The notes below the pieces were generated by a model. That model saw nothing but the letters and a program-made list of their open reading frames with translations. It did no database searches and was not told the origin of the DNA. Below are positions 1 through 13,793 of a stretch of DNA of 64,000 nt, one piece after another. This DNA is from Phycisphaerales bacterium. Its GTDB lineage: Bacteria > Planctomycetota > Phycisphaerae > Phycisphaerales > UBA1924. Each line of letters starts with the position of its first letter. The first letter of the stretch is position 1. The stretch spans positions 186,001 through 250,000 of the forward strand of contig JAVJVK010000007.1 in the NCBI GenBank assembly GCA_040221175.1, written 5' to 3'. A program made the translations under genes and the position numbers.

Positions 1-899
1 ACCACATCGGCCCGGTCCACCGCTCGCTGCACACGGTCATACGCGAACCACTCCACGCGGCCCTGGAAGCTCTTCTTCCGTCGCATGCCCGCCGTGTCGA
101 TCACGATGATCCGCTTGCCGTCCTTCTCGACCAGCACGTCGATCGCATCGCGCGTCGTGCCGGCGATCTCCGAGACGATCACCCGCTCGGCCCCCGCCAG
201 GGCGTTCACCAGCGTGCTCTTGCCCGCGTTGCGCTTGCCGATGACCGCGATGGACAGGTCCGCCGGAGGCGTGCTGGCCGTCTCGTCTTCGGCCGGCAGC
301 AGCTCATAGAGCCGGTCGCTCAGGTCGCGCCGCATGTAGTTGTTCTTGGCGCTGCACATCAGAGGCTCGCCAAAGCCCAGGGCGCTCATCTCGTAGGCGT
401 GGGTCTCCCACTTTGGCCCGTCCACCTTCGTGGCCACCACGTGCACCGGGGCCCGCTTTCCCAGGCTCGGGTCCAGCGTCGCCAGGTGGGCACGGTCCTT
501 CCGCCCCAGCTTCTGCTCGCGCAGCAGGCGGGCGATCTCCTCGTCTCTGGGCGTCAGCCCCGCCTGCACGTCCACGCAGAACAGGATGAGGTCGGCATTA
601 GCGACGGCCGCCTCGATCTGCCCCTCCACGTCGTCGGTCAGGGTCGAAAGATCGGCCCCCACCTCGTCGTACCGGCCGCCTTCGGCCACGTAGACCCCAT
701 AACCGCCCGTGTCGGTCAGCTCCACGGCCCGGCTGGGCTTCCCCTCGCTGTGCTCCAGATCGATGATCTTCGTCACGCGGTCGCGCGTCACCCCCGGCAG
801 ATCGTCGACGATCGACACCTTGGAGTGGGCCAGCATGTTCATCAGCGAGCTCTTGCCCACGTTGGGCCGGCCCACGATCGCGATCCGTGGTATAGGCAT
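1..899 (-). CDS. der: Ribosome assembly GTPase Der (EngA), 3' end outside window
   Basis: Der is a double GTPase needed for 50S ribosomal subunit maturation. The reading frame starts at ATG 899 (minus strand) and runs off the window edge, so about 299 N-terminal codons are present. The first G domain opens with a P-loop GRPNVGKSS followed by a DTGG switch II motif. The second has P-loop GKRNAGKST followed by DTAGM. Two tandem G domains in one chain are diagnostic of Der. The C-terminal KH-like domain is missing because of the window boundary. A TACGAT hexamer lies 7 bases before the start and no Shine-Dalgarno site is visible, so the mRNA may be leaderless. Identification is secure. Confidence 0.97.
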   Translation of the reverse strand, partial: MPIPRIAIVGRPNVGKSSLMNMLAHSKVSIVDDLPGVTRDRVTKIIDLEHSEGKPSRAVELTDTGGYGVYVAEGGRYDEVGADLSTLTDDVEGQIEAAVANADLILFCVDVQAGLTPRDEEIARLLREQKLGRKDRAHLATLDPSLGKRAPVHVVATKVDGPKWETHAYEMSALGFGEPLMCSAKNNYMRRDLSDRLYELLPAEDETASTPPADLSIAVIGKRNAGKSTLVNALAGAERVIVSEIAGTTRDAIDVLVEKDGKRIIVIDTAGMRRKKSFQGRVEWFAYDRVQRAVDRADV

Positions 900-906
900 A
901 GGTCCA

Positions 907-912
907 ATCGTA
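907..912 (-). promoter_or_regulatory. -10-like hexamer of der, leaderless type
   Basis: TACGAT lies 7 bases upstream of the der ATG, with no Shine-Dalgarno site between. It fits a -10 element whose transcript would begin at or near the start codon. The assignment is by pattern only. Confidence 0.45.
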
Positions 913-969
913 CGCCGGCCGACCACCGACCCCGGGCCGGAACAGCCATCCCGGCCGCCGATCACCCCC

Positions 970-975
970 TACCAT
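970..975 (+). promoter_or_regulatory. -10-like hexamer, leaderless type
   Basis: TACCAT lies 8 bases before the ATG at 984 and there is no Shine-Dalgarno site. This is the same arrangement as at der on the opposite strand. Confidence 0.4.
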
Positions 976-983
976 CGCCCGCT

Positions 984-1250
984 ATGGAGAACCTCACCCC
1001 CGGCGCCAAGGTGCGTATTACCCAGCAGTTCCCCCGCATGAGCGGCACGATGGTCTCCACCATCGAGGGCGTCGTCGTCCGCGTCGGACAGGAAAAGTCC
1101 GGCTCGTGGTTCGCCCACACCCGAGACAACAAGGTCTGGATCGACCGCGTCGAACTGCGAAAAAAGGACGGCGAACTCGTCGTCCTCAATCTTGACCGCT
1201 TCTCGGCCGTCGAAATCCTCGAAGAGCCCAAGGCCGAAACGACGGGCTGA
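984..1250 (+). CDS. Small conserved-looking protein of unknown function (88 aa)
   Basis: I do not recognise this family. The protein is 88 residues, starts MENLTPGAKVRITQQ, and looks like a small all-beta domain: alternating hydrophobic strands, two basic patches and a VGQEKSGSWF turn. There is no signal peptide or membrane segment, so it should be cytoplasmic. It is divergent from der and is followed 23 bases later by the CDF transporter on the same strand. The start at 984 is supported by the -10-like hexamer just upstream and by codon bias from that point onward. A nucleic-acid-binding SH3/OB-like fold is possible, but that is only a guess from the strand pattern. Confidence 0.7.
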   Translation: MENLTPGAKVRITQQFPRMSGTMVSTIEGVVVRVGQEKSGSWFAHTRDNKVWIDRVELRKKDGELVVLNLDRFSAVEILEEPKAETTG

Positions 1251-1273
1251 GCTCCCACCCACGGGCGGGCGCC

Positions 1274-2203
1274 ATGTCCCACGACCACCACCACGAAATC
1301 GAACAGATGGGCGACGGCCCCCTCATCTGGGCGGTCGTCATCAACGTGCTGCTCACCGTCGTCGAGATCATCGCCGGCGTCTTCTCGGGCAGCCTCGCCC
1401 TGATCGCCGACGGCCTTCATAACCTCGCCGACGCCGGCTCGCTGGTCGTCGCCCTGGTGGGCCGCCGCATCGCCAAGAAGCCCGCCGACGAGCGCAATAC
1501 CTTCGGCTACAAGCGAGCCGACATCGTCGGGGCCCAGGCAAACCTCATCCTGCTCGTCGTCACCGCGGGCTTCCTCATCCTCGAGGGCATCCAGCGGCTG
1601 CTCAACCCAGAGCCGGTCATCGGCCTGGTCATCATGATCGTCGCCGGCATCGCGCTGGTCATCGACCTGGTAAGTGCCTGGCTGACGGCCAAGCTCGCCG
1701 GCGAAAGCCTGGGCACGCGCGCCGCGATGATACATAAGCTGGCCGACGCCGCCAGCAGCGTGGGCGCCATCCTGGCCGGCGCGCTGGTCTACTTCTTCGA
1801 TTGGTTCTGGGTCGATCCCATGATCGCCTTCATGATCGCCGCCTACATGGTCGTGCAGGCCTTCAAGATGTCGGGCCACACCACGCGCATCCTCATGCAG
1901 GGCGTGCCGCACGAGCTCGACCTGCGGGCCGTCGCCGACGATCTGGCCACCATCGACTACGTGCAGGACATCCATCACCTCCACATCTGGGCGCTCGACC
2001 CCCAGACCATCCTCCTCGAGGCCCACGTCGTCACCGATCGCACGAAGCTGGCCGACATCGAGCCCATCAAGCACGCCATCCGCCAGCGCTGCCGGGCCAA
2101 CTGGAACATCCTCCACACCACCCTTGAGTTCGAAACCGTCGCCACCGCCCAGCGAGAGGCGGCCGAGGATGAAGACCAGGTCAACCTGATTCCCAAGCAC
2201 TGA
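1274..2203 (+). CDS. Cation diffusion facilitator family metal transporter (CzcD/ZitB-like)
   Basis: A 309-residue inner-membrane antiporter expected to export Zn2+ or a similar divalent cation in exchange for protons. The N-terminus is His-rich (MSHDHHHE). About six hydrophobic segments follow, with the family's metal-site pattern in TM2 (ADGLHNLAD, around residue 45) and in TM5 (HKLADAASS, around residue 157). After the last membrane helix comes a cytoplasmic ferredoxin-like domain with VQDIHHLHIWALD, typical of CDF dimerisation domains. The length matches CzcD/ZitB proteins. Substrate specificity cannot be read from the sequence. It sits directly after the small gene at 984 and may be co-transcribed with it. 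Confidence 0.93.
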   Translation: MSHDHHHEIEQMGDGPLIWAVVINVLLTVVEIIAGVFSGSLALIADGLHNLADAGSLVVALVGRRIAKKPADERNTFGYKRADIVGAQANLILLVVTAGFLILEGIQRLLNPEPVIGLVIMIVAGIALVIDLVSAWLTAKLAGESLGTRAAMIHKLADAASSVGAILAGALVYFFDWFWVDPMIAFMIAAYMVVQAFKMSGHTTRILMQGVPHELDLRAVADDLATIDYVQDIHHLHIWALDPQTILLEAHVVTDRTKLADIEPIKHAIRQRCRANWNILHTTLEFETVATAQREAAEDEDQVNLIPKH

Positions 2204-2370
2204 GGCCACATCGCCGCGGCCGTGCGCGCCGCATGGCGCGATGACCGGCCACGAACGCCCAGAATCGAAATCCATCAGAGCCCGATATTTTCCGGGCCGA
2301 ACCCGCACGATGGGCCGTTCTTACAACCGCCCCGGCGCGCCGCCATCCGTCCGACCGCCCGTTGGGTGAA

Positions 2371-2392
2371 GGCCCCCCGAGTTCACGGGGCC
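2371..2392 (+). other. Leader hairpin upstream of the portal gene
   Basis: GGCCCC (2371-2376) pairs with GGGGCC (2387-2392), ending 33 bases before the portal start codon. No T-run follows, so it looks like leader structure rather than a terminator. Confidence 0.35.
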
Positions 2393-2425
2393 ACCACCCA
2401 ACGCCCTTGTCCAAGGGAGGTCACC

Positions 2426-3883
2426 GTGGCGTTCAATCTCGCACCCTTCACCGACACCACCCTCTCGCCGCAGGCCCTCGAGATCATCCTCGCAGAGCAC
2501 GAGCGCGACGTCGCGCCGCGGCTGCGCTGGCTCTGGGGCTACTTCCGAAACGAGCCAACCCGCCCCGGAGGCGAACTCCCGCAAGCCGCCGGCCTACCAC
2601 CCCGCCTTCGCGGCGCGTGGGATCCGTGGTCGGACGACCGCATGGTCGACGCCGCCGCCAGCGAGGTCGTCATCGAGAACGACATCGCCTGGCGAATCCA
2701 CACCATGGTCGACTTCATGCTGCCAGAGCCGCTCGTGCTGCTCAGCAATGCCGGGCAAGCCGAAGAACGACGCAACATCGAGGCCGCCCTTGACGCGGTG
2801 TGGGAAGCCTCGGGCGGTCTCGCCCTCCTGCACGACGCCCTCCTCCTGGGCCATGTCTACGGCCACGTCGACCTGCTGCTCCGCTGCGACATCGAGCGGC
2901 TGACCGCCCTCGCCCCGGACCTCGACTCGCTCCTGGAGCTTCCCGGTGAGGTGCTGGCCGAGGCCATCCGCGTGGAGGCCATCGACCCGACCCGCGGCGT
3001 GCCCATTGTCGACGCGGGCGACTACCGCCGCCTCGAGGCCTACGCCATCGACTTCACCCGCCGCACCTCGCAGACCGACGAGCACGACCGCCACGGCCGC
3101 ACGCTCGACACCGAGCGCGTCACCGAAGTTCTGAGCGGCGCGTGGCGGCAGGTATACGTCGACGGCGAGCTGGTGGCCGAGGGCCCCAACCGCGCCTCGC
3201 CCGGCCGCGTGCCGATTGTGCACATCCAGAACATTCCCCAGCCGCTGTGCTACGCCGGCGTGGGCGAGGTCGAGCCGCTCGTGCCGCTGCAGGACGAACT
3301 GAACACGCGCTTGAGCGACCGCGCCGCCCGCGTGACCATGCAGAGCTTCAAGATGTACCTGGCCAAGGGCATCGAGGGCTTCGACCAGGTCCGCATCGGC
3401 CCGGGCCGCGTCTTGAGCACCGACAACCCCGACGCCCAGGTGACGGCCTTCGGCGGCGATGCCGACTCGCCCAGCGAGACCCTGCACGTCGAGGACATTC
3501 GCGAGGCCATGGACAAGACCTCGGGCGTGCCGCCCATCGCCGCGGGCGTCGTCCGCGCCAAGATCGGCAACCTCTCCAGCGGCAACGCGCTCCGCGTGAC
3601 GATGCTGGGCCTGCTGAGCAAGACACGCCGCAAGCGTGTGGGCTACGGGGCCGGCGTGGCGCGGATGAGCGCCCTCATCCTCGAAGCCCTCGACCGCGCG
3701 GGCACCCTGGCCACCGAGCCGCAAGACCGCAAGGTGGGCGTGCACTGGCCCGACGCCATCGACCTCGACAAGGACGCCCAGCTCGTCAACGCCCAGCGCA
3801 AGAGCGACCTGGGCATCGACCCCGAGCGCGTGCTGGCCGAGCTCGGATACGCCGCCGACACGCAGGAGAACACCAATGCCTGA
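2426..3883 (+). CDS. Phage-type portal protein (SPP1 Gp6-like), first gene of a capsid module
   Basis: Portal proteins form the dodecameric ring at the unique capsid vertex through which DNA enters. I chose GTG 2426 because a GGGAGG Shine-Dalgarno site ends 5 bases before it and the protein then begins MAFNLAPFTD. The 485 residues have the SPP1-portal layout: an acidic N-terminal part, a central beta-rich wing with PIVHIQNIPQP, then PLQDELNTRLSDRAARVTMQ and a stem/crown region with SGVPPIAAG and SSGNALRVT. The latter motifs are typical of this portal superfamily. It overlaps the next gene by 8 bases. Codon use looks like that of neighbouring host genes, which argues against a very recent arrival. 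No terminase gene precedes it. Confidence 0.8.
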   Translation: MAFNLAPFTDTTLSPQALEIILAEHERDVAPRLRWLWGYFRNEPTRPGGELPQAAGLPPRLRGAWDPWSDDRMVDAAASEVVIENDIAWRIHTMVDFMLPEPLVLLSNAGQAEERRNIEAALDAVWEASGGLALLHDALLLGHVYGHVDLLLRCDIERLTALAPDLDSLLELPGEVLAEAIRVEAIDPTRGVPIVDAGDYRRLEAYAIDFTRRTSQTDEHDRHGRTLDTERVTEVLSGAWRQVYVDGELVAEGPNRASPGRVPIVHIQNIPQPLCYAGVGEVEPLVPLQDELNTRLSDRAARVTMQSFKMYLAKGIEGFDQVRIGPGRVLSTDNPDAQVTAFGGDADSPSETLHVEDIREAMDKTSGVPPIAAGVVRAKIGNLSSGNALRVTMLGLLSKTRRKRVGYGAGVARMSALILEALDRAGTLATEPQDRKVGVHWPDAIDLDKDAQLVNAQRKSDLGIDPERVLAELGYAADTQENTNA

Positions 3884-4349
3884 GAACACGCCCGACACCA
3901 ACGCGAATGACAATCACGCCGACAACGACCTGCGCGAAGCACTGGCCGAACGCACGCAGATGGCCAGCGACCTGGCCGACCAGCTCCGCGCCCGCGAGGC
4001 CCAGCTCGAGGACCTGCGCGACCGCGCGGGCCGGCTCGAGCGGCGCGGCGCCATCGAGCGCGGCCTGGCCCAGGCGGGCGCCATCGACACCGAGTCGCTG
4101 GCGCTGCTGGTCGAGAGCCGGCTGGAAGGCGACGCCGACGCCACGCCCCAGCGCGTCATCGCCCAGCTCCAGCGCGAGCGGCCCGCGCTCTTTCGGGCCA
4201 GCGGCGCCCGCGCGTCGGCCATGAGCCCGAGCCATCCCTCCCAGGGCGCGCCGGGTCGCGCGGTGGTCGATCGTGCGCACGACGACGCACGCGCCACCGG
4301 CGACCGGCGCGCCCTCATGAAGTACCTGCGCCTCCGACGCGCCCAGTAG
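3876..4349 (+). CDS. Scaffold-like coiled-coil protein of the capsid module
   Basis: A 157-residue, strongly charged protein without membrane or signal sequences. Residues ~15-55 form a predicted coiled coil (ALAERTQMASDLADQLRARE, then an arginine/glutamate-rich stretch). This is followed by an AIDTESLALLVESRL helical segment and a basic C-terminus ending in KYLRLRRAQ. Its place between portal and major capsid genes, the size and the helical character match phage scaffolding proteins, which guide capsid assembly and then leave. It begins inside the end of the portal gene, so translation is probably coupled. No protease domain is visible, so maturation by a self-encoded protease is not apparent. 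Function is inferred from position and composition. Confidence 0.6.
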   Translation: MPENTPDTNANDNHADNDLREALAERTQMASDLADQLRAREAQLEDLRDRAGRLERRGAIERGLAQAGAIDTESLALLVESRLEGDADATPQRVIAQLQRERPALFRASGARASAMSPSHPSQGAPGRAVVDRAHDDARATGDRRALMKYLRLRRAQ

Positions 4350-4411
4350 CACCACGCCCATCGCCCCCGATCTCGACTCGCACGCCACGCACATGATCAA
4401 AGGAGTCTCGC

Positions 4412-5584
4412 ATGGCATTCACTGGTAAGGCGACCTTCTCGGCCGGCAGCACGCTGCCCGAACTCGTCGAGGACGTCTCGGACATCATCGGCATCGTCAG
4501 CCCCTTCGAAACCCCCCTGCTGGATCACCTGGGCGACGCCCGGCGCGCGGCCGCCAGCACCGTGCACGAGTGGATCGAGGATGAGTTGCTGCCCAACACC
4601 GGCGTGGTAATTGCCCAGGCGTTCTCGCCCACCGCCCTGACCGACACCACCATCACCGTCGACGACGGCTCGCGCTTCCGCGTGGGAGACCTGGTCCGCC
4701 CCGGCGAAGGGCCCGAGGTCATGCTGGTCACCGGAATCGCCAGCGACACGCTGACGGTGGTGCGCAGCTACGGCGGCACCGATGCGATCCCCCTGGCCGA
4801 GGACATGGTCCTGACCATCCTGGGCAACGCCGCACTCGAAGGCGCCGAGGCCCCCGATGCACGCTTCACCAACCGCGTGCGCAAGAGCAACTACACGCAG
4901 ATCTTCACCGCGGCGGTGGAAGTTTCCGGCTCGATGCAGGCCGTGCGTGCCCACGGCATCGCCGACGAGCTGGACTACCAGAAGCAGGAACGCATGCGCG
5001 AGTTGCTGCGCGACCTGGAGAACTGCATCATCAACGGCGTGGCGCCCGCGAGCACGCCCCAGGGCTCGGGCTCGGTCCGTCGCTCGATGAACGGCCTGAT
5101 CCATGGTCTGGAGACCAACCTGTTTGAACCCGGGGAGGGGCCCATTCCGGGTGGTTCGGGCGCCGGGTCGGACGGCCTGACCGAGGAGGTGCTCAACGCC
5201 GCCCTCCGCGAGGTGTGGGAACAGTCCTCGGGGCCGATCGACACCATCGTGTGCGGCGGGCTCCAGAAGCGCCGCATCAACGCCTTCCTGACTTCGTCGC
5301 GCCGCTATGGCCCCAGCGACGACCGCTACAGCGACCTGGTGAGCGTCTACGAGAGCGACTTCGGCGTCTGCCGCGTGGTCGTGTCGCGATGGATGCCCGC
5401 CGACAGCCTGCTGCTGCTGGATTCCAGCCGCATCGAGGTCATGCCGCTGGAGGGCCGCAGCTTCCACTACAAGCCGCTTGCGGCAACTGGCGACGCGGCG
5501 ATGGGCCAGGTCATCGGCGAGTACACGGTCGAGATGCGCAACGAGAACGCGCACGGCCTGATCAGCGGGCTGGCCACCAGCTAG
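4412..5584 (+). CDS. Major capsid protein, SU10/DUF5309-like (HK97-fold)
   Basis: This 390-residue protein should be the main shell subunit. It has the order typical of SU10-type capsid proteins: an N-terminal DIIGIVSPFETPLLDHLGD segment, a beta-rich insertion (DTTITVDDGSRFRVGDLV) resembling a capsid decoration or spike domain, NRVRKSNYTQIFTAAVEVSG, a long helix (ELDYQKQERMRELLRDLE) and FLTSSRRYGPSDDRYSDLV. The C-terminal part has SRWMPADSLLLLD and FHYKPLAATGDA. A GGAG site (4400-4403) precedes ATG 4412. It lies between the scaffold-like and connector-like genes, as in tailed phages. The assignment comes from recalled family patterns, not a search. Confidence 0.8.
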   Translation: MAFTGKATFSAGSTLPELVEDVSDIIGIVSPFETPLLDHLGDARRAAASTVHEWIEDELLPNTGVVIAQAFSPTALTDTTITVDDGSRFRVGDLVRPGEGPEVMLVTGIASDTLTVVRSYGGTDAIPLAEDMVLTILGNAALEGAEAPDARFTNRVRKSNYTQIFTAAVEVSGSMQAVRAHGIADELDYQKQERMRELLRDLENCIINGVAPASTPQGSGSVRRSMNGLIHGLETNLFEPGEGPIPGGSGAGSDGLTEEVLNAALREVWEQSSGPIDTIVCGGLQKRRINAFLTSSRRYGPSDDRYSDLVSVYESDFGVCRVVVSRWMPADSLLLLDSSRIEVMPLEGRSFHYKPLAATGDAAMGQVIGEYTVEMRNENAHGLISGLATS

Positions 5585-5709
5585 TGCCCATGGGCATGCG
5601 AAGGGCTCGGCGGTTTCGTGTGGGGGCGGCCGCCGGCTCGCGGGCCGGGTAACACCGGCCCGCGGGTTTGAAGGACACAACGCGCACGCGAGAGCGCAAG
5701 GAGCGACTC

Positions 5710-6339
5710 ATGTTTGGACACGACAGGGACATGCTGGCCATCGAGCCACACGCCTTCACCGACGCGCTCTGGGCGGGTCGACGCCTGGCTTCGGGTACGG
5801 CGGCCGTCTCCGGCACGACGCTAACCAGTTCGAGTTCGAGCGCGACATTCTCCGATGCGGGCGCGACCGTGGGTCAGGTGCTCGTGTTCAACGGCGTGCC
5901 TCTCGAGGTCATCTCGGTGACGTCCGATACGGTGCTCGAGGTGTCGCGCCTCCGCCGCTCGCTCGAAGATCCCGCGTTGCCGCCGGTGGCCTCTGCCGGT
6001 GCGCCGTTCACGCTGGTGACGTTTGCGCCGCAGCGCGCGATCGTGTACCGGCAATTGCTGGGCATGCTCGGCCTGGACGTGCCAGATGTGCCCGGACCCG
6101 AGGCGGTGGTTGACGCTTCGTCGCTCGTGCACGCCGAGGCGTTGGGCACGCTCCACCTGGTGTATGCCGCGGCTTCGGCGCTCAGCGGGCCGAGTTCGTC
6201 GCTGGGCGCCCGCGCTGCGATGTATGCGGACATGTTCTCGCGAGCGCGGCAATCGCTGGTCGTGCGGCTGGACCCGGACGGCGACGGGGTCGTCGATGCC
6301 ACGCGCCGGCCCGCACTTATGCAACTGGTCAGGGGCTAA
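5710..6339 (+). CDS. Probable head-tail connector protein of the capsid module
   Basis: A 209-residue protein. I prefer ATG 5710, since an AAGGAG site at 5698-5703 lies 6 bases upstream; a TTG further upstream (5668) has none. The N-terminal ~100 residues are beta-rich with Ser/Thr runs (GTTLTSSSSSATFSD). The C-terminal half is helical and contains YRQLLGMLGLD, LGARAAMYADMFSRAR and a short acidic DPDGDGVVDATRR loop. An all-helical C-terminal half next to the capsid gene is typical of head-tail adaptors, but I cannot place it in a named family. The gene ends 11 bases before the next one. Confidence 0.55.
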   Translation: MFGHDRDMLAIEPHAFTDALWAGRRLASGTAAVSGTTLTSSSSSATFSDAGATVGQVLVFNGVPLEVISVTSDTVLEVSRLRRSLEDPALPPVASAGAPFTLVTFAPQRAIVYRQLLGMLGLDVPDVPGPEAVVDASSLVHAEALGTLHLVYAAASALSGPSSSLGARAAMYADMFSRARQSLVVRLDPDGDGVVDATRRPALMQLVRG

Positions 6340-6350
6340 GGAGGACGGCC

Positions 6351-6770
6351 ATGCTCGTATTGAACCCCCAATCGGTGCACTTGCTTGGCTCGCCGATCGA
6401 GCGCGTGCGCCGCATCGCTGTCGATCGCGTCCCCGAGCGAACGCTCTTGGAGTGGGGCAACACCGGACCCTATCCGACGTTTGCCGACGTGCCCGAGCAA
6501 CGCGTCGAGATCGAACTCGTGGCCGATCTGGAACGCGGCTCGGTCGAAAGGCCGGCGCCCGGGGACGAGGGGACTCTGGCGTTCTTCACCGCCCCAACCG
6601 CCGGACACGGAGGCCGTCGGAGGATCGAAGCCAGCGTGGTCGTTACTTCGATTCGCCAGGAGATCGAGCCCGGCGGGGTGACGCGGCGACGGATCCGGAT
6701 GCAGGCGATCTCCGGCAACGGGTCGACCGATCCGATCGTGGTGAGCAACGCCGAAGACGGCGCCCGCTAG
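6351..6770 (+). CDS. Phage-module protein of unknown function (tail-tube or stopper size)
   Basis: A 139-residue protein with no signal peptide or membrane helix. It reads as a beta-strand-rich fold: VRRIAVDRVPERTLLEW, then VEIELVADLERGSVERP, then IEASVVVTSIRQEIEPGG and RIRMQAISGNGSTDPI. Its compact beta content and position after the connector fit a tail-tube, stopper or tail-completion protein. No family is recognised. It is preceded by an AAGGAGG-like site (6339-6345) and is 22 bases from the next gene, so it belongs to the same transcription unit. Confidence 0.5.
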   Translation: MLVLNPQSVHLLGSPIERVRRIAVDRVPERTLLEWGNTGPYPTFADVPEQRVEIELVADLERGSVERPAPGDEGTLAFFTAPTAGHGGRRRIEASVVVTSIRQEIEPGGVTRRRIRMQAISGNGSTDPIVVSNAEDGAR

Positions 6771-6792
6771 GCAGGCGCGAAAGGAGCACACG

Positions 6793-7182
6793 ATGCCGAG
6801 CATGTACGATGGCTCGCCGCTGTTTGCCAGCGGCCCGCACCGCTTCGAGGTTCATCGTCAGGGCCAGACGGAGGTGCCGCCCGGGACTTCGCCCACGCTG
6901 CAGTCTCCGCCCAGTTCCAAGTGGACGCAGTTGGGACCGGTCCAGTTGTCGATCTCGGTGCGAGGCCGGCTGGTGGCGTCGAGCGAAGCCGACCTGTGGA
7001 CGCTGCGCGACGCGATCTCGGGCGCCCTGACGTCTTCGCCCAGCACGGGCACGCTGGAGGACGGCCAGGGCAAGAGTTGGGACAACATGTGGCTGGTGGG
7101 GTATCGCGAGATCGGGCCGATCGATGTCGGTCGGGCGTGGTCGATCGGATATGAAGCCGTGTTCCGGAAGGTGGGACAGTAG
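6793..7182 (+). CDS. Phage-module protein of unknown function (tail-component-like)
   Basis: A 129-residue protein. After a low-complexity N-terminus (PPGTSPTLQSPPSS) it has a beta-hairpin-rich part with VQLSISVRGRLVASSEADLW and a short helix TLRDAISGAL. It ends WSIGYEAVFRKVGQ, and a C-terminal aromatic/beta strand of this kind is common in small tail proteins. A GGAG site (6782-6785) precedes the ATG. It lies in a tight same-strand cluster with the capsid genes, which is the main reason to assign it to the module. Precise function is unknown. Confidence 0.5.
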   Translation: MPSMYDGSPLFASGPHRFEVHRQGQTEVPPGTSPTLQSPPSSKWTQLGPVQLSISVRGRLVASSEADLWTLRDAISGALTSSPSTGTLEDGQGKSWDNMWLVGYREIGPIDVGRAWSIGYEAVFRKVGQ

Positions 7183-7184
7183 CG

Positions 7185-7481
7185 ATGCAGGGCGACGTGG
7201 CGGGCATGCTGGCGCAGTTTGGCATGGCCGGGTTGATCGCGTGGATGTGGCTGAGCGAGCGTCGCGCCGGACTGGCGCGCGAGCGTCAGATCGAAGAGGC
7301 GCATCGCCGGCTCACGCAGGAGCAGCAGTCGCTTGGCGTCGTGATCCGCGTGGTGGAAGCCAACACGCGGGCCATGGCTTCGCTGGAGATGGGCCAGCGC
7401 GGGCTGGCCGAACTCATCCGGGAGCTGTCGGCACACCGAGAGGGCTCCGACGCGCGGCGGCGGTCGCCCGAGGTTATATAA
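7185..7481 (+). CDS. Small membrane/coiled-coil protein, holin-like position
   Basis: A 98-residue protein starting 2 bases after the preceding stop codon. Residues ~8-24 (MLAQFGMAGLIAWMWLS) form one membrane-spanning helix. Residues ~25-85 form a charged amphipathic coiled coil, followed by a basic tail. This layout resembles BhlA/XhlA-type phage holin accessory proteins, which sit at the ends of tail/lysis modules. No endolysin is encoded next to it, so a lytic role is not supported by context. It could instead anchor the particle or assembly machinery to the membrane. It ends just before a strong hairpin. Confidence 0.5.
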   Translation: MQGDVAGMLAQFGMAGLIAWMWLSERRAGLARERQIEEAHRRLTQEQQSLGVVIRVVEANTRAMASLEMGQRGLAELIRELSAHREGSDARRRSPEVI

Positions 7482-7492
7482 GCAAAGAAAAA

Positions 7493-7517
7493 GGCCCCCG
7501 GCGGACATCCGGGGGCC
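7493..7517. terminator. Bidirectional intrinsic terminator between capsid module and exoprotein A
   Basis: A perfect 9-base-pair stem GGCCCCCGG/CCGGGGGCC with a 7-base loop. On the minus strand it is followed by TTTTTCTTT, so it best terminates the minus-strand gene at 7578. It also lies just after the last + strand capsid-module gene. Confidence 0.85.
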
Positions 7518-7577
7518 CCTGTGGTCACTCAGAAGGTTTTATTTGTGACCGTAACACAGACTGAGTGATGCTGCGAT

Positions 7578-7658
7578 TTACTCGCAGCCGGCGTCGAAGG
7601 CGTTCTGGAAGCAGAGGAAGTCGAAGAGCGTGAGGATGCCGTCCTCATCGCAGTCGGC
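7578..7658. repeat. 81-bp exact direct repeat, copy 1
   Basis: These 81 bases, the 3' end of exoprotein A, are identical to 11486-11566 at the 3' end of exoprotein B. They encode the last EF-hand loop and the GCE terminus. The identity at synonymous sites suggests recent duplication or gene conversion. Confidence 0.85.
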
Positions 7659-9488
7659 AGCCGAGTCTCCACTGTCGAAGGCGTTCTGGAACGCCAGGAA
7701 GTCGAAGATGGTCAGGCTGCCGTCGCCGTCGAAGTCGGCGTAGCACGACTCACCGGTGCCGAGCCAGCCGAGTTGGTTCTCGAGCAGGTCACGGACTTGG
7801 CCGTCGGTCATCGAGTCATAGTCGAAGCCGTTGAAGAGGGTGGCATCGCCGTTGGCGACGATGATGGCGCCATCGCCCGAGGTGGAGTCGAAGGTACCGA
7901 CCACTTCGGCGCCGGCGTCAGCGGTCATGCTGTCGCCGTTGTCGTTCCACGGGCTGGGAGCCGTGTCCGGGTTGACCGGGCTGGCGGCGCTGCCCCACGA
8001 CGGGTGGCCGGCGTTGTCGAAGACCGAGCGCGGCGTGAAGAAGTCGACGGCCGTCGCGACGCCGAAGGCGTCTTGCAGCACGGGCTCGGCGTCCATGTTC
8101 CAGAAGGACAGATGGGCGCGGTTGCCGCGAGCGATGAAGTCGGCGAAGGCGGCGGGCGTGCCACCGTCGAAGAAGCAGCAGGGGTTGCTGACCAGGGCAA
8201 CGCCGAAGTCGGGGTTGTTCAGGGCAGCGGTCAGGCCCGGGAAGTCGCTCTCGAGGACCAGGTCCGGGATGATGCCAGCAGCGCTGACGGCGGCGGCCAG
8301 GTGGCCGTCGTTGCCGGACTGGAACTGGATGACCTGGCTGCCGGGGGGCGGGGGCGGAGGTGTGCTGGTGCGCACCCAGGCGATCTGGGCTTCGAGCAGG
8401 TTGATCACCTCGGGCTGGACCATCGAGTCGTACTCGAAGCCGTTGGCCAGGGTGCGGTTCTCGTTGCTGACGACGGTGGCGCCATCGCCCGAGGTGCTGT
8501 CGAAAGTCGACACGACCTCGTCGCCGGTCAGGCTGTCGCCGTTATCGTTCCAGTCATCGGCCTCGACCGTGACCGGGCTGGCGGCGCCGCCCCACGAGGG
8601 GTGGCTGGCGTTGTTGAAGACCGGACGCGGCACGGTGAAGTCGACCGCGCTGTCGACGCCGAGGGTGCCTTGTAAGGCCGGGCTGGCGTCCAGGTTCCAG
8701 AACGAGAAGTGCACGCGGTTACCCGCGGCGACGAAGGCGTCAAGCTCGGTATCGAAGCCAGCCGCGAAGTTGTTGGCCGGGTTGTGGATGATGGCAAAGC
8801 GGTACTGACCGCTGGCCAGGCCGGCGTTCAGGGCGGCGTAGTCGCCGTCGATGAAGTCGTAGTTCAGGCCCAGGTTGTCGGCGGCGGCCCGAGCCGGGAA
8901 GTCGCCGTTGCTGTCGCTGAACAGCAGGATGCGGGCCGGCAGGCCGCCTTGGGCGTAGCCGAAGTCATCAAACGCGGTTTCGGGACCGTCGACGCGTACC
9001 GAGCCGATCTCGGTGGTGGACGTCCAGCGTAGGTTGATCATGCTGCCGTCGCCGGGGCCGTAGCCATCGGAGTCGACGAACTGACCGATCTGGTTGCCGC
9101 TCATGTCGAAGAAGGTAATGGTGTCGGCGCCGACGCCGGCAGCGCTGGCCGAGAAGCCAAAGGCGCTGACGCCACCGATGCCGGTGAAGTCAAAGTCGAC
9201 CGAGCCGAAACCGAAGATGGTGCCGAACTTGGTGCCGCTGGTGGGCTGGATGGGGCCACCGGGGCTGCGGAAGTCCTGCCAGTTGCCGAAGTCGACCGAG
9301 GCGAAGCTCAGGGCGCCGCCCACGCCGACGTCGCCGCCGAAGATGCTGGTCAGGAAGACGCGACCACCGGGATAGCTCTCCATGTCGTCGGTGGCGTCGG
9401 GCGTAAACGGACCGGGCGAAACCTGGGCAAACGTGGTGCCGGCGGCCGCGAGGATCGCGGCGGCGGCGAGAACCTTCTGGGTATTCAT
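7578..9488 (-). CDS. Exported repeat protein with C-terminal GC-type dockerin-like tail (exoprotein A)
   Basis: A 636-residue secreted protein of unknown activity. A signal peptide (MNTQKVLAAAAILAAAGTTF, cleaved near AQ) is followed by an all-beta jelly-roll-like domain with DFTGIGGVSAFGFSASAAG and DGPETAFDDF. Next come two tandem ~180-residue domains separated by a proline linker (TPPPPPPGS). Each domain contains a 'xHPSWG', a 'WNDNGDS' and a 'FDSTSGDGA' motif. The C-terminal ~60 residues hold two EF-hand-like loops (DFDGDGSLTIFD and DCDEDGILTLFD) and end FDAGCE. Calcium binding is likely from the loop residues. The protein is a close paralogue of the one at 11486-13399. A long leader lies upstream (9489 onward). 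Confidence 0.85.
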   Translation of the reverse strand: MNTQKVLAAAAILAAAGTTFAQVSPGPFTPDATDDMESYPGGRVFLTSIFGGDVGVGGALSFASVDFGNWQDFRSPGGPIQPTSGTKFGTIFGFGSVDFDFTGIGGVSAFGFSASAAGVGADTITFFDMSGNQIGQFVDSDGYGPGDGSMINLRWTSTTEIGSVRVDGPETAFDDFGYAQGGLPARILLFSDSNGDFPARAAADNLGLNYDFIDGDYAALNAGLASGQYRFAIIHNPANNFAAGFDTELDAFVAAGNRVHFSFWNLDASPALQGTLGVDSAVDFTVPRPVFNNASHPSWGGAASPVTVEADDWNDNGDSLTGDEVVSTFDSTSGDGATVVSNENRTLANGFEYDSMVQPEVINLLEAQIAWVRTSTPPPPPPGSQVIQFQSGNDGHLAAAVSAAGIIPDLVLESDFPGLTAALNNPDFGVALVSNPCCFFDGGTPAAFADFIARGNRAHLSFWNMDAEPVLQDAFGVATAVDFFTPRSVFDNAGHPSWGSAASPVNPDTAPSPWNDNGDSMTADAGAEVVGTFDSTSGDGAIIVANGDATLFNGFDYDSMTDGQVRDLLENQLGWLGTGESCYADFDGDGSLTIFDFLAFQNAFDSGDSAADCDEDGILTLFDFLCFQNAFDAGCE

Positions 9489-9591
9489 CTCTTCAAGCCC
9501 CCAAAATTAGGTGCTACAGGTCACGCGGCTGGTACAACACCAACCGCCTCATACAAACACGAATCGCCGACGAGCCCACGCGGGCCCGCCG

Positions 9592-9644
9592 GGGTCAGCA
9601 AGCGTTCTTTTCGAGTGATCACGAACACGCTCGGATCGCCTCTC
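9592..9644 (-). promoter_or_regulatory. Conserved leader element of exoprotein A
   Basis: Read on the minus strand, a GAGAGGCG block (9637-9644) is followed ~33 bases later by GCTTGCTGACCC (9592-9603). The 12-base block occurs identically in the leader of the paralogue (13498-13509), at nearly the same distance from the start codon (about 100 bases). A GC-rich hairpin follows in both. It is a candidate cis-acting RNA or protein-binding site. Confidence 0.45.
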
Positions 9645-9910
9645 CTGCTGTCGTGCTTTCCGGTTTCCACGTCATAACCTCACGACCGTTGCGTAACGAT
9701 CGCGTAGGTAGAACCAGACAGCACACCTCGCTGCTGGAGTGGTCAGATCTCCGTGAGCCTGCCGTTCCTTAGTTGGCTTGGAAAACTTACCCCCAGCTTC
9801 CCTCAATACGAGTCGCAACTTCTCTCGCTATAAGTAATGCCGTGACGCCCTCGTTTTGTCAAGAGCATTTTGACAGCTTTGACCCATTTTTCTGATGGGC
9901 TGGCGTAGTT

Positions 9911-9939
9911 TTGCCTACCTGGTCTGGCTCCGGTATGCC
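9911..9939 (+). promoter_or_regulatory. Sigma-70-type promoter of the ketosynthase gene
   Basis: TTGCCT (9911-9916), a 17-base spacer and TATGCC (9934-9939). Transcription would start about 80 bases before the ATG at 10025. Confidence 0.5.
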
Positions 9940-10024
9940 TGGGACGCCCGTCGGCCGCTGTGGGCAAGCCGGGCTACGGTCTCGGTCGAGGCCCTGGATG
10001 AAGCCGGAGGCCCGGGAGGCGCGC

Positions 10025-11356
10025 ATGCGAGGCGGACGGCGAGTGGTCGTGACCGGGATGGGCTGGATAACTCCCCTGGGGTGTGGCCTGGACGATGCCT
10101 GGGAAGCGATGATGGCCGGGCGGTCAGCCGCTGGGGCGATCGCTGGATTCGATGCCGGGGCATTCGCGACGAACTTCGCAGCCGAAGTTGCCGGCTTCGA
10201 GCTGGCCGACCATCTCGGGGACCTTTCCGGGCTTCATCGCTCTGCCGGTCGTGGAACCGCCTTTGCATTGGCGGCCGCCTTGGCGGCATGGCGTCAGGCG
10301 GGGCTGGAGGCGGGTGGGGTGGACCCGTTCCGTGCGGGGTTGTACTTGGGGGCAGGCGAGAGCAGCCCGGACAGTGCGGCCTTCGGACGGATCTGCATCG
10401 GTTCGTGGGATGCGGACCAGCGAGTGGTGGATGGAGCGCGGTGGGCGGCGGCGGCTGCACAGCTCGATCTGATGCGAGAGGTGGAGCAGGAACCACAGAT
10501 GGCTCTGGCGCACCTCTCGGCATTGCTTGGCCTGCGCGGTCCGGCCATGAACTGCATGACGGCATGCGCGGCGAGCACGCAGGCCATCGGCGAGGCTGCC
10601 GAGGTGATCTGTCGCGGCGATGCCGACGTGATGGTCAGCGGCGGGTGCCACTCGATGATTCATCCGTTGGGGATGACCGGATTCATCCGCCTGACGGCGA
10701 TGAGTACGCGAAACGACGAGCCGGCCGGGGCATCTCGCCCGTTCGATCGGACGCGTGATGGTTTCGTGATGGGCGAGGGCGCGGGCGTGCTCGTGCTCGA
10801 GGATCTGGAGCATGCGCGGGCGCGGGGCGCGACGCCCCTGGCCGAGATCGCCGGGTACGGATCGTCGGCGGACGCGTACCGCATTACGGACATCGATCCC
10901 GAAGGCGAGGGGGCCTGGCGTGCGATGGGGCGGGCGCTCGAGCAGGCAGGGATCGATCCGAGCGTAGATGGCGACGACGGACGGCCTGGCGTGCACTACG
11001 TGTCTGCACACGGCACCGGCACGCGCGAGAACGATGGCATCGAGACGCGGGCGGTGAAGCGGCTATTCGGCGAGCTCGCGCCGCGCGTGCCCGTGAGCAG
11101 CGTGAAAAGCATGCTGGGACACCTGATCCAGGCGGCGGGCGCGGTTGAGCTCATCGCGTGCATCCGCGCGATGCAGACGGGATGGCTGCCGCCGACGATT
11201 AATTACCTCGAGCCTGACGAGGCGTGCGACCTTGACTATGTGCCGAACAAGGCGCGCGATGTGCGCGAGCAGGGCGGTGTGCGGGTGTGCCTGTCGAACA
11301 GCTTTGGTTTCGGCGGGCAGAACGACTCGGTGGTCGTGCGGCGCTGGGACGGGTGA
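10025..11356 (+). CDS. Beta-ketoacyl-[acyl-carrier-protein] synthase (FabF/KAS II-like)
   Basis: A 443-residue thiolase-fold enzyme that condenses malonyl-ACP with an acyl-ACP in fatty-acid-type chain elongation. Catalytic Cys181 lies in MTACAAST, His329 in SAHGTGT and His366 in KSMLGHLIQAAG, giving the Cys-His-His triad of elongating ketosynthases. The conserved Lys361 is also present, and the C-terminal NSFGFGGQN loop is intact. I start at ATG 10025 (MRGGRRVVVTGMG), which aligns with the usual FabF N-terminus; a GGGAGG (10015-10020) lies before it. No acyl carrier protein or other fatty-acid gene is adjacent, so this may be a dedicated or secondary synthase. It lies between two duplicated exoprotein genes. 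Confidence 0.93.
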   Translation: MRGGRRVVVTGMGWITPLGCGLDDAWEAMMAGRSAAGAIAGFDAGAFATNFAAEVAGFELADHLGDLSGLHRSAGRGTAFALAAALAAWRQAGLEAGGVDPFRAGLYLGAGESSPDSAAFGRICIGSWDADQRVVDGARWAAAAAQLDLMREVEQEPQMALAHLSALLGLRGPAMNCMTACAASTQAIGEAAEVICRGDADVMVSGGCHSMIHPLGMTGFIRLTAMSTRNDEPAGASRPFDRTRDGFVMGEGAGVLVLEDLEHARARGATPLAEIAGYGSSADAYRITDIDPEGEGAWRAMGRALEQAGIDPSVDGDDGRPGVHYVSAHGTGTRENDGIETRAVKRLFGELAPRVPVSSVKSMLGHLIQAAGAVELIACIRAMQTGWLPPTINYLEPDEACDLDYVPNKARDVREQGGVRVCLSNSFGFGGQNDSVVVRRWDG

Positions 11357-11420
11357 GGAGTGTGGAACTCGGAAGTTTGCTTCTCTTCGTTTGACGCGAC
11401 ACGAAGGTAATACAAAGAAC

Positions 11421-11446
11421 GAGGCCCCGGATTGCTCCGGGGCCTC
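11421..11446. terminator. Bidirectional terminator between ketosynthase and exoprotein B
   Basis: A perfect 10-bp stem GAGGCCCCGG/CCGGGGCCTC with a 6-base loop. It is followed by GTGTTT on the plus strand and GTTCTTTGT on the minus strand, and lies between convergent genes. Confidence 0.85.
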
Positions 11447-11485
11447 GTGTTTACTCAGAAGGTTCTAGAACGGACGGGGCTGGGA

Positions 11486-11566
11486 TTACTCGCAGCCGGC
11501 GTCGAAGGCGTTCTGGAAGCAGAGGAAGTCGAAGAGCGTGAGGATGCCGTCCTCATCGCAGTCGGC
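11486..11566. repeat. 81-bp exact direct repeat, copy 2
   Basis: Identical to 7578-7658 and in the same orientation. Recombination between the copies would remove the ketosynthase gene and fuse the two exoprotein genes. Confidence 0.85.
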
Positions 11567-13399
11567 GGCCAGGTCGCCGTTATCGAAGGCGTTCTGGAAG
11601 GCCAGGAAGTCGAAGATGGTCAGGCTGCCATCGTCGTCGAAGTCGGCGTAGCAGTCGCCGCCGCCGGTGCCGAGCCAGCCGAGCTGGGCGGCCAGCAGGT
11701 CACGGATCTCGCCATCGGTCATCGAGTCATAGTCGAAGCCGTTGAAGAGGGTGGTGTCGCCGTTGGCGACGATGATGGCGCCATCGCCCGAGGTGGAGTC
11801 GAAGGTACCGACCACTTCGGCGCCGGCGTCAGCGGTCATGGTGTCGCCGTTGTCGTTCCACGGGCTGGGATCGATGGCCGGGTTGACCGGGCTGGCCGCG
11901 CCGCCCCACGACGGGTGACCAGCGTTGTCGAACACCGGACGCGGCGTGAAGAAGTCGACGGCCGACGCGACGCCGAAGGCGTCCTGCAGCACGGGCTCGG
12001 CGTCCATGTTCCAGAAGGACAGGTGGGCGCTGTTGCCGCGAGCGATGAAGTCGGCGAAGGCGGCGGGGGTGCCACCGTCGAAGAAGCAGCAGGGGTTGCT
12101 GACCAGGGCAACACCGAAGTCGGGGTTGTTCAGGGCGCTGGTCAGGCCCGGGAAGTCGCTCTCGAGGACCAGGTCGGGCGTGATGCCAGCGGTGCTGACG
12201 GCGGCGGCCAAGTGGCCGTCGTTGCCGGACTGGAACTGGATGACCTGGCTGCCGGGGGGCGGGGGCGGGGGCGCCGCGTTGGCGACCCAGTCAATCTGCG
12301 CCTCGAGCAGGTTGACCATGCCGCCGGCTTCCATCGAGTCGTACTCGAAGCCGTTGGCCAGGGTGCGGTTGTCGTTGCTGACGACCGTGGCGCCATCGCC
12401 CGAGGTGCTGTCGAAGGTCGACACGACCTCGTCACCGGTCAGGCTGTCACCGTTGTCGAGCCAGGGGTCGCTACCCGAGGTGGCGACGGGGCTGGCAGTG
12501 CCGCCCCACGAGGGGTGCGACGCGTTGTTGAAGACCGGACGCGGCACGGTGAAATCGACCGCGCTGTCGACGCCGAGGGTGCTCTGGAGGGCGGGCTCGG
12601 CATCGAGGTTCCAGAACGAGAAGTGGACGCGGTTGCCGCCGCTGACGAAGGCGTCGAGCTCGGCGTCGAAGCCGGCGGCGAAGTTGTTGGCCGGCTGGTG
12701 GATGATGGCGAAGACGTAGTCGCCGCTGGCCAACGCCGCGTTGAGGGCGGCCGTGTCGCTGGTGATCAGGTCGTAGTTGAGGCCGAGGTTGTCGGCAGCG
12801 GTCTGCTCGTGCAGCTCGTTGCTCTCGGAGTAGACCAGGATGCGGGCCGGCAGGTCGCCGGCGGCGATGGCGATGTCGTCGAACGCGGTCTCGGGACCGG
12901 TGACGGTGACCGAGCCGATGGCGGTCGTGGAGGTCCAGGCCTTGGCTTCCATGGTGCCGTCGCCGGGGCCGTAGCCGTCGCCGTCGCTGAAGAAGCCGAT
13001 GCTGTTGCCATCGAGGTCGAAGAACTCGATGTCATCGCTGCCGACGCCGGCGGCGCTGGCCGAGAAGCCGAAGGCGGTGATGCCGCCGATGCCGGTGAAG
13101 TCGAAGCTCACCGAGCCGAACCCGAAGATGGTGCCGAAGCGGTTGCCGCTGGTGGGCTGGATCGGGCCACCGGGGCTGCGGAAGTCCTGCCAGTTGCCGA
13201 AGTCAACCGACGTGAAGTCGAGTGCGCCACCCACCGAAACATCACCACCCAAGAGGGTGCTGATGATGGTGCGACCGCCGCCGTAGCTCTCCATGTCATC
13301 GGTGGCGTCGGGCGTAAAGGAGCCAGGGGAAACCTGGGCAAACGTGGTGCCGGCGGCCGCGAGGATCGCGGCGGCGGCGAGAACCTTCTGAGTGTTCAT
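11486..13399 (-). CDS. Exported repeat protein with GC-type dockerin-like tail (exoprotein B, paralogue of A)
   Basis: A 637-residue protein with the same domain order as exoprotein A: signal peptide MNTQKVLAAAAILAAAGTTF, jelly-roll-like domain, two tandem repeat domains joined by a PPPPPPGS linker, and two EF-hand-like loops ending FDAGCE. Much of the repeat region is identical to A (for example FGVALVSNPCCFFDGGTPAA). A longer frame extends upstream, but the paralogue places the start here; a second ATG three bases upstream is equally possible. Divergence from A is concentrated in the jelly-roll region and the first repeat domain. The 3' end is identical in DNA sequence to A. Function is unknown; cell-surface or matrix attachment is inferred from the tail. 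Confidence 0.85.
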   Translation of the reverse strand: MNTQKVLAAAAILAAAGTTFAQVSPGSFTPDATDDMESYGGGRTIISTLLGGDVSVGGALDFTSVDFGNWQDFRSPGGPIQPTSGNRFGTIFGFGSVSFDFTGIGGITAFGFSASAAGVGSDDIEFFDLDGNSIGFFSDGDGYGPGDGTMEAKAWTSTTAIGSVTVTGPETAFDDIAIAAGDLPARILVYSESNELHEQTAADNLGLNYDLITSDTAALNAALASGDYVFAIIHQPANNFAAGFDAELDAFVSGGNRVHFSFWNLDAEPALQSTLGVDSAVDFTVPRPVFNNASHPSWGGTASPVATSGSDPWLDNGDSLTGDEVVSTFDSTSGDGATVVSNDNRTLANGFEYDSMEAGGMVNLLEAQIDWVANAAPPPPPPGSQVIQFQSGNDGHLAAAVSTAGITPDLVLESDFPGLTSALNNPDFGVALVSNPCCFFDGGTPAAFADFIARGNSAHLSFWNMDAEPVLQDAFGVASAVDFFTPRPVFDNAGHPSWGGAASPVNPAIDPSPWNDNGDTMTADAGAEVVGTFDSTSGDGAIIVANGDTTLFNGFDYDSMTDGEIRDLLAAQLGWLGTGGGDCYADFDDDGSLTIFDFLAFQNAFDNGDLAADCDEDGILTLFDFLCFQNAFDAGCE

Positions 13400-13472
13400 C
13401 ATCTCTACAAACCCCATTTGCAAATGGAAACTGGGTACGCCCCGGCAACGGCGCCGGGACATCGAAACAAAA

Positions 13473-13499
13473 CCATGGCCATTGTCCGAATGGCCGTGG
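13473..13499 (-). terminator. Terminator-like hairpin inside the leader of exoprotein B
   Basis: CCATGGCCATT and AATGGCCGTGG form an 11-bp stem with one wobble position and a 5-base loop. On the minus strand it is followed immediately by TTTTGTTT. It lies 74 bases upstream of the exoprotein B start and directly after the conserved leader motif, so it could be an attenuator. Confidence 0.5.
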
Positions 13500-13562
13500 G
13501 TCAGCAAGCCTGTTTGGGATTTCGTGCCTGGTGAGTTCTCACCGAGCCATCCCCCGTCTCTC
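13498..13562 (-). promoter_or_regulatory. Conserved leader element of exoprotein B
   Basis: On the minus strand GAGAGACG (13555-13562) is followed by a small GGTGAG-aa-CTCACC hairpin inside a GGGAT/ATCCC stem, then GCTTGCTGACCC (13498-13509). The same blocks in the same order precede the paralogue at 7578-9488. Confidence 0.45.
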
Positions 13563-13793
13563 GTGTGAGCCCGGCGCCAGCTCTCCAAGCCGGTGGACCG
13601 GGCCGGCCCGTGGACGGGCCATCTCTCCGTGAGTGTCGCCAGCTACCTTGGCGGCACGTTCCTCTCGCGTGGAAGAGCGACGGCACCCCGACTTCCCATC
13701 GCATGGCGGCGGGAACGGGGTCTTGATCAGCGATCAGGTTTTCGGATGGTGGTCCAGAAAATACCGCTGTCCTCCACGAATCTCTCTGGCCTC

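Follow-up and report, generated by a model that had tools for sequence, protein, structure and literature searches.

A compact block of seven genes lies near the start of the DNA stretch analysed here, hereafter the window (64,000 nucleotides of Phycisphaerales bacterium, GenBank assembly GCA_040221175.1, contig JAVJVK010000007.1, positions 186,001 to 250,000), and can with good confidence be regarded as encoding the head and neck of a caudoviricete that has been domesticated and is inherited mostly vertically, most likely working as a gene transfer agent (GTA) with two loci and probably a short tail. The block encodes a portal, a scaffold-like protein, a major capsid protein (MCP), a head-tail adaptor and three small proteins named G5, G6 and G7 (Table 1); the terminase TerL is encoded on the same contig, 65 kb away. 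The element is called GTA-like, its membership being unproven, because three features of the GTA definition are found and the others need particles or a transfer assay; the definition list available from Kogay et al. 2022 (PMC9662315) includes endogenization and vertical inheritance. The features found are proteins derived from caudoviricetes (the portal, MCP and TerL families together with the tail-tube-type fold of G6), endogenization in several loci (block and TerL 65 kb apart on one contig, and in two places at varying distance in many relatives) and the inheritance pattern described below.

Head and neck proteins

The initial annotation of the window, made from the sequence alone, had claimed seven intact genes in tight order, and all seven open reading frames (ORFs) are indeed open, with portal and scaffold frames overlapping by 8 bases and short gaps elsewhere; its portal and SU10/DUF5309-type capsid are likewise borne out by PHROG and Pfam profiles (Table 1). 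In particular, the MCP matches SU10_MCP (PF17236) with 295.3 bits against a cut-off of 24.1, over residues 9-387 and profile positions 9-291 of 292, and is thus a full-length member of this family; a profile built from 30 relatives matches the solved capsid chains 9ny2, 9in6 and 7z45. The portal is the only SPP1_portal match of its own genome. The scaffold-like gene keeps its label by position, its profile match being weak (Phage_scaffold, E 0.0011, under the Pfam cut-off), and the window proteins adaptor, G5, G6 and G7 have no convincing PHROG or Pfam family; these four are nonetheless conserved among relatives.

The AlphaFold model of the adaptor (pLDDT 96) has no Foldseek match under 0.001, and neck proteins lead only in a second look with VIA-align, in which the top rows are neck or connector proteins: the Mu neck 5ydn (Z 8.4, root-mean-square deviation (rmsd) 3.9, 101 aligned) and those of phage 812, JBD30, GP4, Carin1, N4 and SU10 at Z 6.9-7.7 (for SU10, Z 6.9, rmsd 4.3, 91 aligned), on a scale where unrelated proteins also score Z about 6-7. 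The model of G6 (pLDDT 77) is placed by Foldseek closest to the phage baseplate chain 8eon_A (E 3.1e-3, probability 1.0), with the RcGTA chain 6tba_50 at rank 11 and no match under 0.001, and by VIA-align at a top Z of 11.2 (rmsd 5.2, 108 aligned), with SPP1 Dit at Z 9.9. The two modelled folds suggest that the neck is closed and may bear a single tail ring. The C-terminus of the adaptor family also carries a DLDGDG-type motif, a possible calcium site; the family profile has a weak match to EF-hand proteins (E 0.016).

G5, which has no PHROG match for the window protein, no PDB sequence match and scattered weak PHROG matches in relatives, is possibly a stopper or second neck ring, judging from its position. 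Among 30 members of the G7 family, searched at PHROG E up to 0.05, 17 match phrog_32121 (unknown; all weak), 11 the Rz-like spanin phrog_89 (best 8e-4) and 9 the bacteriocin-related phrog_2429; G7 is possibly a holin/spanin-type lysis protein, on weak matches in part of the family. No maturation protease or tape measure was seen in the block, and their absence from it fits a scaffold-based, short-tailed particle.

The terminase locus

The block had been described as stand-alone and without packaging genes. No terminase was seen by eye among the ORFs of window positions 1-12000, and to this extent the description stands; it is wrong at genome level, since a TerL with intact motor and nuclease motifs is encoded 65 kb upstream on the same contig. 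Among the options listed by the initial annotation, the one that agrees with this TerL and with its co-occurrence with the block across the class is the GTA-like head module whose packaging genes lie elsewhere. PHROG profiles searched against the own genome (G000; 3.44 Mb, 20 contigs) give one strong terminase place, C7:122328-123479 (E 1.3e-13), and two weaker ones at E 2.8e-4 (about window 58151-58600) and E 9.6e-4. The TerL gene, G000:C7:122145-123599, lies outside the window and ends 65 kb before the portal, and the genes between them look housekeeping by eye; its protein matches Terminase_6C (1.2e-7) and phrog_2 (3.5e-16) and has no PDB sequence match.

Upstream of TerL lie genes for an HTH protein (sigma-70 region 4, 3.3e-15), an ABC-type ATPase (2e-9) and a GNAT protein (8.7e-7). 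The order HTH-ABC-GNAT-TerL is the commonest in 45 TerL loci, some with incomplete flanks (14 loci), and is followed by HTH-ABC-GNAT-ParB-like-TerS-like-TerL and by TerL alone (8 each), where ParB-like denotes a ParB_N Pfam match in one member and TerS-like is named from position and size. The residues that we take to be Walker A (R, G, K, T) and Walker B (RCDE) are kept in 45/45 TerL sequences, and the presumed nuclease aspartates in all 44 readable ones. TerL is adjacent to the MCP gene in G086 and G133, about 4 kb from it in G009 and about 1 Mb in G018, so that the split varies among genomes.

We infer for the element that particles form, that DNA is packaged non-specifically, and that lysis and transfer follow. 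The scaffold would guide MCP assembly upon the portal; TerL, encoded 65 kb off behind the HTH, ABC-type ATPase and GNAT genes, would dock at the portal and pack host DNA into the head; closure would come from a very short tail made up of the adaptor, G5 and G6; and G7, perhaps with host lysins, would help to free the particles, which would bring DNA to kin cells. Co-packaging of both loci is unlikely at a distance of 65 kb.

Distribution and gene order

MCP matches occur in 131 of the 298 class genomes, mostly as single copies, and the full-length main copies are 53-91% identical; G211 holds just a weak 31% match, and G102 and G090 contain additional, separate copies that are about 30-33% identical. 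TerL matches are present in 175/298 genomes at E 0.001, many of them weak. At stricter thresholds (MCP E up to 1e-25, TerL E up to 1e-30) both proteins are found in 122 class genomes, MCP only in 7, TerL only in 26 and neither in 143 (Fisher 1.5e-47, relatedness uncorrected). In the own family MCP and TerL are together in 27/27 sampled genomes, which is not the sporadic presence of a prophage; in more distant families presence is patchy.

Across the phylum, 54 of 392 genomes have an MCP match. Of the 25 among them from outside the class, most show 48-56% identity, G311 shows 37% and three match weakly. A TerL match, divergent, weak and often limited to the nuclease part, is present in 19 of the 25 versus none of 8 chosen MCP-free genomes. 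One genome, G638, has two weak matches (MCP and TerL) side by side and looks like a prophage. A scan of genome contigs with the MCP alignment, using one genome per species (84,980 species), yields 341 encoding stretches; the best 80 of the 341 are mostly titled Phycisphaerae, Phycisphaerales, Phycisphaeraceae or Planctomycetota, with a few other groups, including one Cyanobacteria and one Vicinamibacteraceae, both metagenome-assembled genomes.

Gene order was counted in 126 distinct non-viral loci (132 minus 3 duplicates and 3 viral-contig loci), several of which end at contig ends. The portal family is present in 121, the scaffold in 119, the adaptor in 121, G5 in 69, G6 in 90 and G7 in 76; the order portal-scaffold-MCP-adaptor is unbroken in 109 loci and the full seven-gene order in 47. 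A second locus type runs on G6-FG-YPSD, FG and YPSD being adjacent in 24 loci; these two names are coined here, the term fibre-like is a guess from position, and the one member of each that was tested has no PHROG match and weak noise only in Pfam.

Selection and inheritance

Pairwise dN/dS between the own genes and up to six genus members is 0.11-0.21 for the portal, 0.13-0.37 for the scaffold, 0.10-0.21 for the MCP, 0.11-0.43 for the adaptor, 0.17-0.32 for G5, 0.13-0.41 for G6 and 0.11-0.20 for G7 (two pairs); at the second locus it is 0.14-0.36 for TerL, 0.10-0.57 for the ABC gene and 0.11-0.62 for the HTH gene (three genomes, one pair over 56 residues only). The block genes and TerL are under purifying selection.

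The frames of matched pieces were counted in 49 loci, taken from the own genome and a choice of the 131 matching ones, mostly with full-length MCP: a single frame is found for the portal in 48/49, MCP in 48/49, TerL in 45/45, adaptor in 47/49 and scaffold in 44/49, the remaining adaptor and scaffold loci being unmatched. This test missed a split portal in G023, described below, as only the C-terminal part of the portal lies in that locus.

On an MCP tree of 49 rows, made by a quick method, family labels change 15 times for 15 families, the minimum being 14; on a TerL tree of 44 rows, with the fragment G234 left out, they change 14 times against a minimum of 13. Mantel tests against rpoB (34 and 31 taxa) give r 0.41 for MCP and r 0.62 for TerL, and MCP against TerL (44 taxa) gives r 0.77, with 0/2000 permutations in each case. 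These comparisons point to mostly vertical inheritance and co-diversification with the hosts, the remaining feature of the GTA definition, with a congruence that is broad and imperfect.

Contrary evidence and rival explanations

Several observations weigh against a working GTA. MCP is matched in 1/20 genomes of family f4 and 5/12 of f3 (one of them a remnant) and in none of those sampled from f7, f18 and f21, so the element is dispensable; no TerL was detected in 7 class genomes with MCP, nor MCP in 26 with TerL. Five f10 loci lack a scaffold match and two an adaptor match, and the fibre-like protein, present in 5 of 31 genomes searched, is missing from the 19 of these 31 that belong to the own family. 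The quick MCP tree, many of whose forks are weak, does not recover families f2, f3, f12, f19 and f22 as single clades, and the correlation of MCP with rpoB is just moderate. Finally, some copies are broken: in G023, one of the seven genus genomes, about 67 kb separate the two parts of the portal, broken at residues 307-312 (L194:167-1420 and L195); the G288 portal carries one in-frame stop; and at least six class genomes (G001, G026, G046, G060, G161 and G206) have an interrupted, rearranged or truncated MCP, with only the first 47 positions found in G046 and the first 93 in G026.

The two junctions of the G023 portal have a 14-bp string in common, and one of them adjoins a 417-residue protein read as a tyrosine recombinase by eye, with zero Pfam matches at 0.001. 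A large serine recombinase adjoins the disrupted MCP in G161 and G206 (by Pfam) and in G060 (by eye), and the MCP of G001 has a 6.7-kb insert; a protein of this insert (L287:3619-4653) has tape-measure matches (phrog_8125, 3.8e-9). The inserts of G161 and G206 encode a protease-capsid fusion (phrog_4523, 4.8e-75 and 5.8e-80); the fusion is matched in 81/298 genomes, many over the capsid part only, and is also found without the GTA MCP (e.g. G032, G119, G248), hence it is not tied to the MCP insertion site. The elements at disrupted MCP genes are possibly mobile elements targeting or parasitising the GTA. In a wider scenario, which is unlikely as a whole, an ancient and independent Planctomycetota GTA with a minimal tail would predate the families of the class and be parasitised by elements with their own protease-capsid protein, which would insert in the capsid gene, silence the shell and possibly move by its portal and terminase as GTA satellites.

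The broken portals and MCPs, the phage-type genes and the several families without the element would also be expected of an ordinary prophage remnant, that is a decaying insertion that has lost the genes for integration, replication and the tail; such a remnant is highly improbable in view of the same gene order throughout the class, dN/dS of 0.10-0.43, the matching TerL locus and the clustering of most families on the trees, and the degraded prophage once considered for the block is disfavoured on the same grounds and by the frames of relatives, most of which are open, with the exceptions given above. The small size of the block, in which no tape measure or maturation protease was seen, and the 26 genomes with TerL and no detected MCP would suit a domesticated protein shell or nanocompartment without DNA, with TerL kept for some other reason. 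Encapsulins and virus-derived nanocompartments are shells with enzyme cargo that lack portal and terminase; in this element the portal and the adaptor are each conserved in 121/126 loci, TerL co-occurs and keeps its motor and nuclease motifs, and MCP and TerL distances are correlated (r 0.77), so that the shell, another of the earlier proposals, appears highly improbable as well.

The least probable of these explanations is a phage satellite or a persistent element that has kept its mobility through self-packaging or a helper phage. It would agree with a capsid and a terminase without replication genes and with one viral contig: a search of IMG/VR viral contigs with the MCP alignment gives 5 loci, versus zero matches with the single MCP sequence, and one of these loci, L276:6734-8183, combines an MCP of 63% identity with a fragment of the scaffold and shows no portal or adaptor match; a gene on this contig looks like a terminase by eye. 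Against it stand the 65 kb between the loci, filled with housekeeping-type genes by eye, the class-wide pattern and the fact that no recombinase was seen near either the capsid block or the TerL locus of G000 when ORFs were read by eye. L276 may represent a capture of GTA genes by a phage. In the viral contigs L279 and L280, a match to the TerL profile (1.2e-19), a gene the size of a portal, unmatched by any profile, and an MCP of 35% identity stand in phage order; these contigs are possible relatives of the ancestor of the GTA.

Surroundings of the block

Table 1. Genes of the capsid block and the element upstream of it (window positions), and disrupted MCP loci of relatives (positions on the loci named)
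Feature	Position	Strand	Basis
Portal protein (PORT)	2426..3883	+	phrog_104 E 1.3e-21; Pfam SPP1_portal 1.2e-12
Scaffold-like protein (SCAF)	3876..4349	+	weak Phage_scaffold match; gene placed between portal and MCP
Major capsid protein (MCP), SU10/DUF5309 type	4412..5584	+	Pfam SU10_MCP 7.3e-88
Head-tail adaptor / neck protein (ADAP)	5710..6339	+	AlphaFold model; VIA-align neck/connector rows
G5, small beta-rich protein	6351..6770	+	role from position only; beta-rich is the label of the initial annotation
G6, tail-tube / Dit / Hcp-fold protein	6793..7182	+	AlphaFold model; Foldseek; VIA-align
G7, small protein, N-terminal hydrophobic segment and coiled coil (by eye)	7185..7481	+	
19-bp element GTCCGACCGCCCGTTGGGT, candidate promoter or operator	2349..2367	+	5' of portal gene
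Disrupted MCP, G161	L112:3888-16822		
Disrupted MCP, G206	L288:496-12546		
Disrupted MCP, G060	L289:3135-7452		
Disrupted MCP, G001	L287:1038-9086		

The flanks had been described as ordinary host genes, and this holds by Pfam for the neighbours tested as cation efflux and ketoacyl synthase, the exoprotein neighbour having zero Pfam matches; the local host flanks are common to only 1-3/20 loci of relatives. Two similar large secreted-looking repeat proteins with a dockerin-like acidic C-terminus by eye (window 7578-9488 and 11486-13588, minus strand) enclose a FabF-type gene, and the protein at 7578-9488 has no Pfam match.

The 19-bp element is recognisable in all 7 genus genomes aligned, while its flanks diverge; it is exact in G000, G003 and G298 and carries substitutions in the other four. 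In the rest of the genome the pattern, which was derived from this site, has only 3-mismatch matches, no more than the reversed-pattern control (2 and 2). It is a candidate promoter or operator. As a cis-element common to the portal and TerL loci it was rejected, being absent 5' of the TerL operon in G000; a loose motif in portal upstream regions was also rejected as a common signal, since it matched 7/117 only, five of these being the own genome and close relatives.

Codon adaptation was calculated against ten host genes picked by eye, which score 0.47-0.82 against themselves. The host-like codon use claimed for the block is found in portal, scaffold and MCP (0.72-0.74), the four small genes being lower (0.50-0.57); the TerL, ABC and HTH genes score 0.63-0.67, and MCP with random synonymous codons 0.20.

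Comparison with known systems

GTAs studied in detail stem from few groups, according to the available text of PMC12946183, and a Planctomycetota GTA-like element of this kind was not found described in the available portions of open-licence PMC literature: the planctomycete mention of PMC7947584 is a Zavarzinella prophage TerL, and the accessible parts of PMC13055281 and PMC8597652 describe no such planctomycete element. If correct, the proposed GTA, class-wide and apparently mostly vertical, with packaging encoded at a locus of its own and a tail that is probably very short, would represent an independent domestication event; it would offer a testable route of gene exchange in the mostly uncultured Planctomycetota and a comparison case for the separation of terminases from their capsids, and repeated insertion of mobile elements in its capsid or portal genes would raise the question of GTA parasitism.

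SU10-type phages (Pfam SU10_MCP; PDB 7z45, 7z4b) share with the block the MCP family and a resemblance of the neck adaptor; in contrast to it they are virus genomes, and the closest named-phage MCP is 31.5% identical among the best 20 of 404 phage records, the closest named-phage TerL being 30.5% identical among the best 20 of 54. RcGTA and the Rhodogtaviriformidae are likewise caudoviricete-derived, with scattered loci and vertical co-diversification with the host, as far as the available text of PMC9662315 describes them; the G6 model resembles the RcGTA chain 6tba_50, and the remaining comparison is by description. RcGTA differs in its 49-nm tail (PMC9662315), whereas the MCP here is of SU10 type and no tape measure was seen in its block.

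By analogy, the nearest known kind would be FpGTA of Faecalibacterium, as presented in the available text of PMC12946183. FpGTA particles with about 9 kb of DNA are shown there, whereas here there are genes alone, and the two are likened by description. In FpGTA TerL stands beside portal and MCP, with tail and lysis genes in operon II, whereas here TerL is apart; both systems have TerL, portal, scaffold and MCP and two distant operons (about 125 kb there, 65 kb here), and FpGTA is called most likely podovirus-like by its authors.

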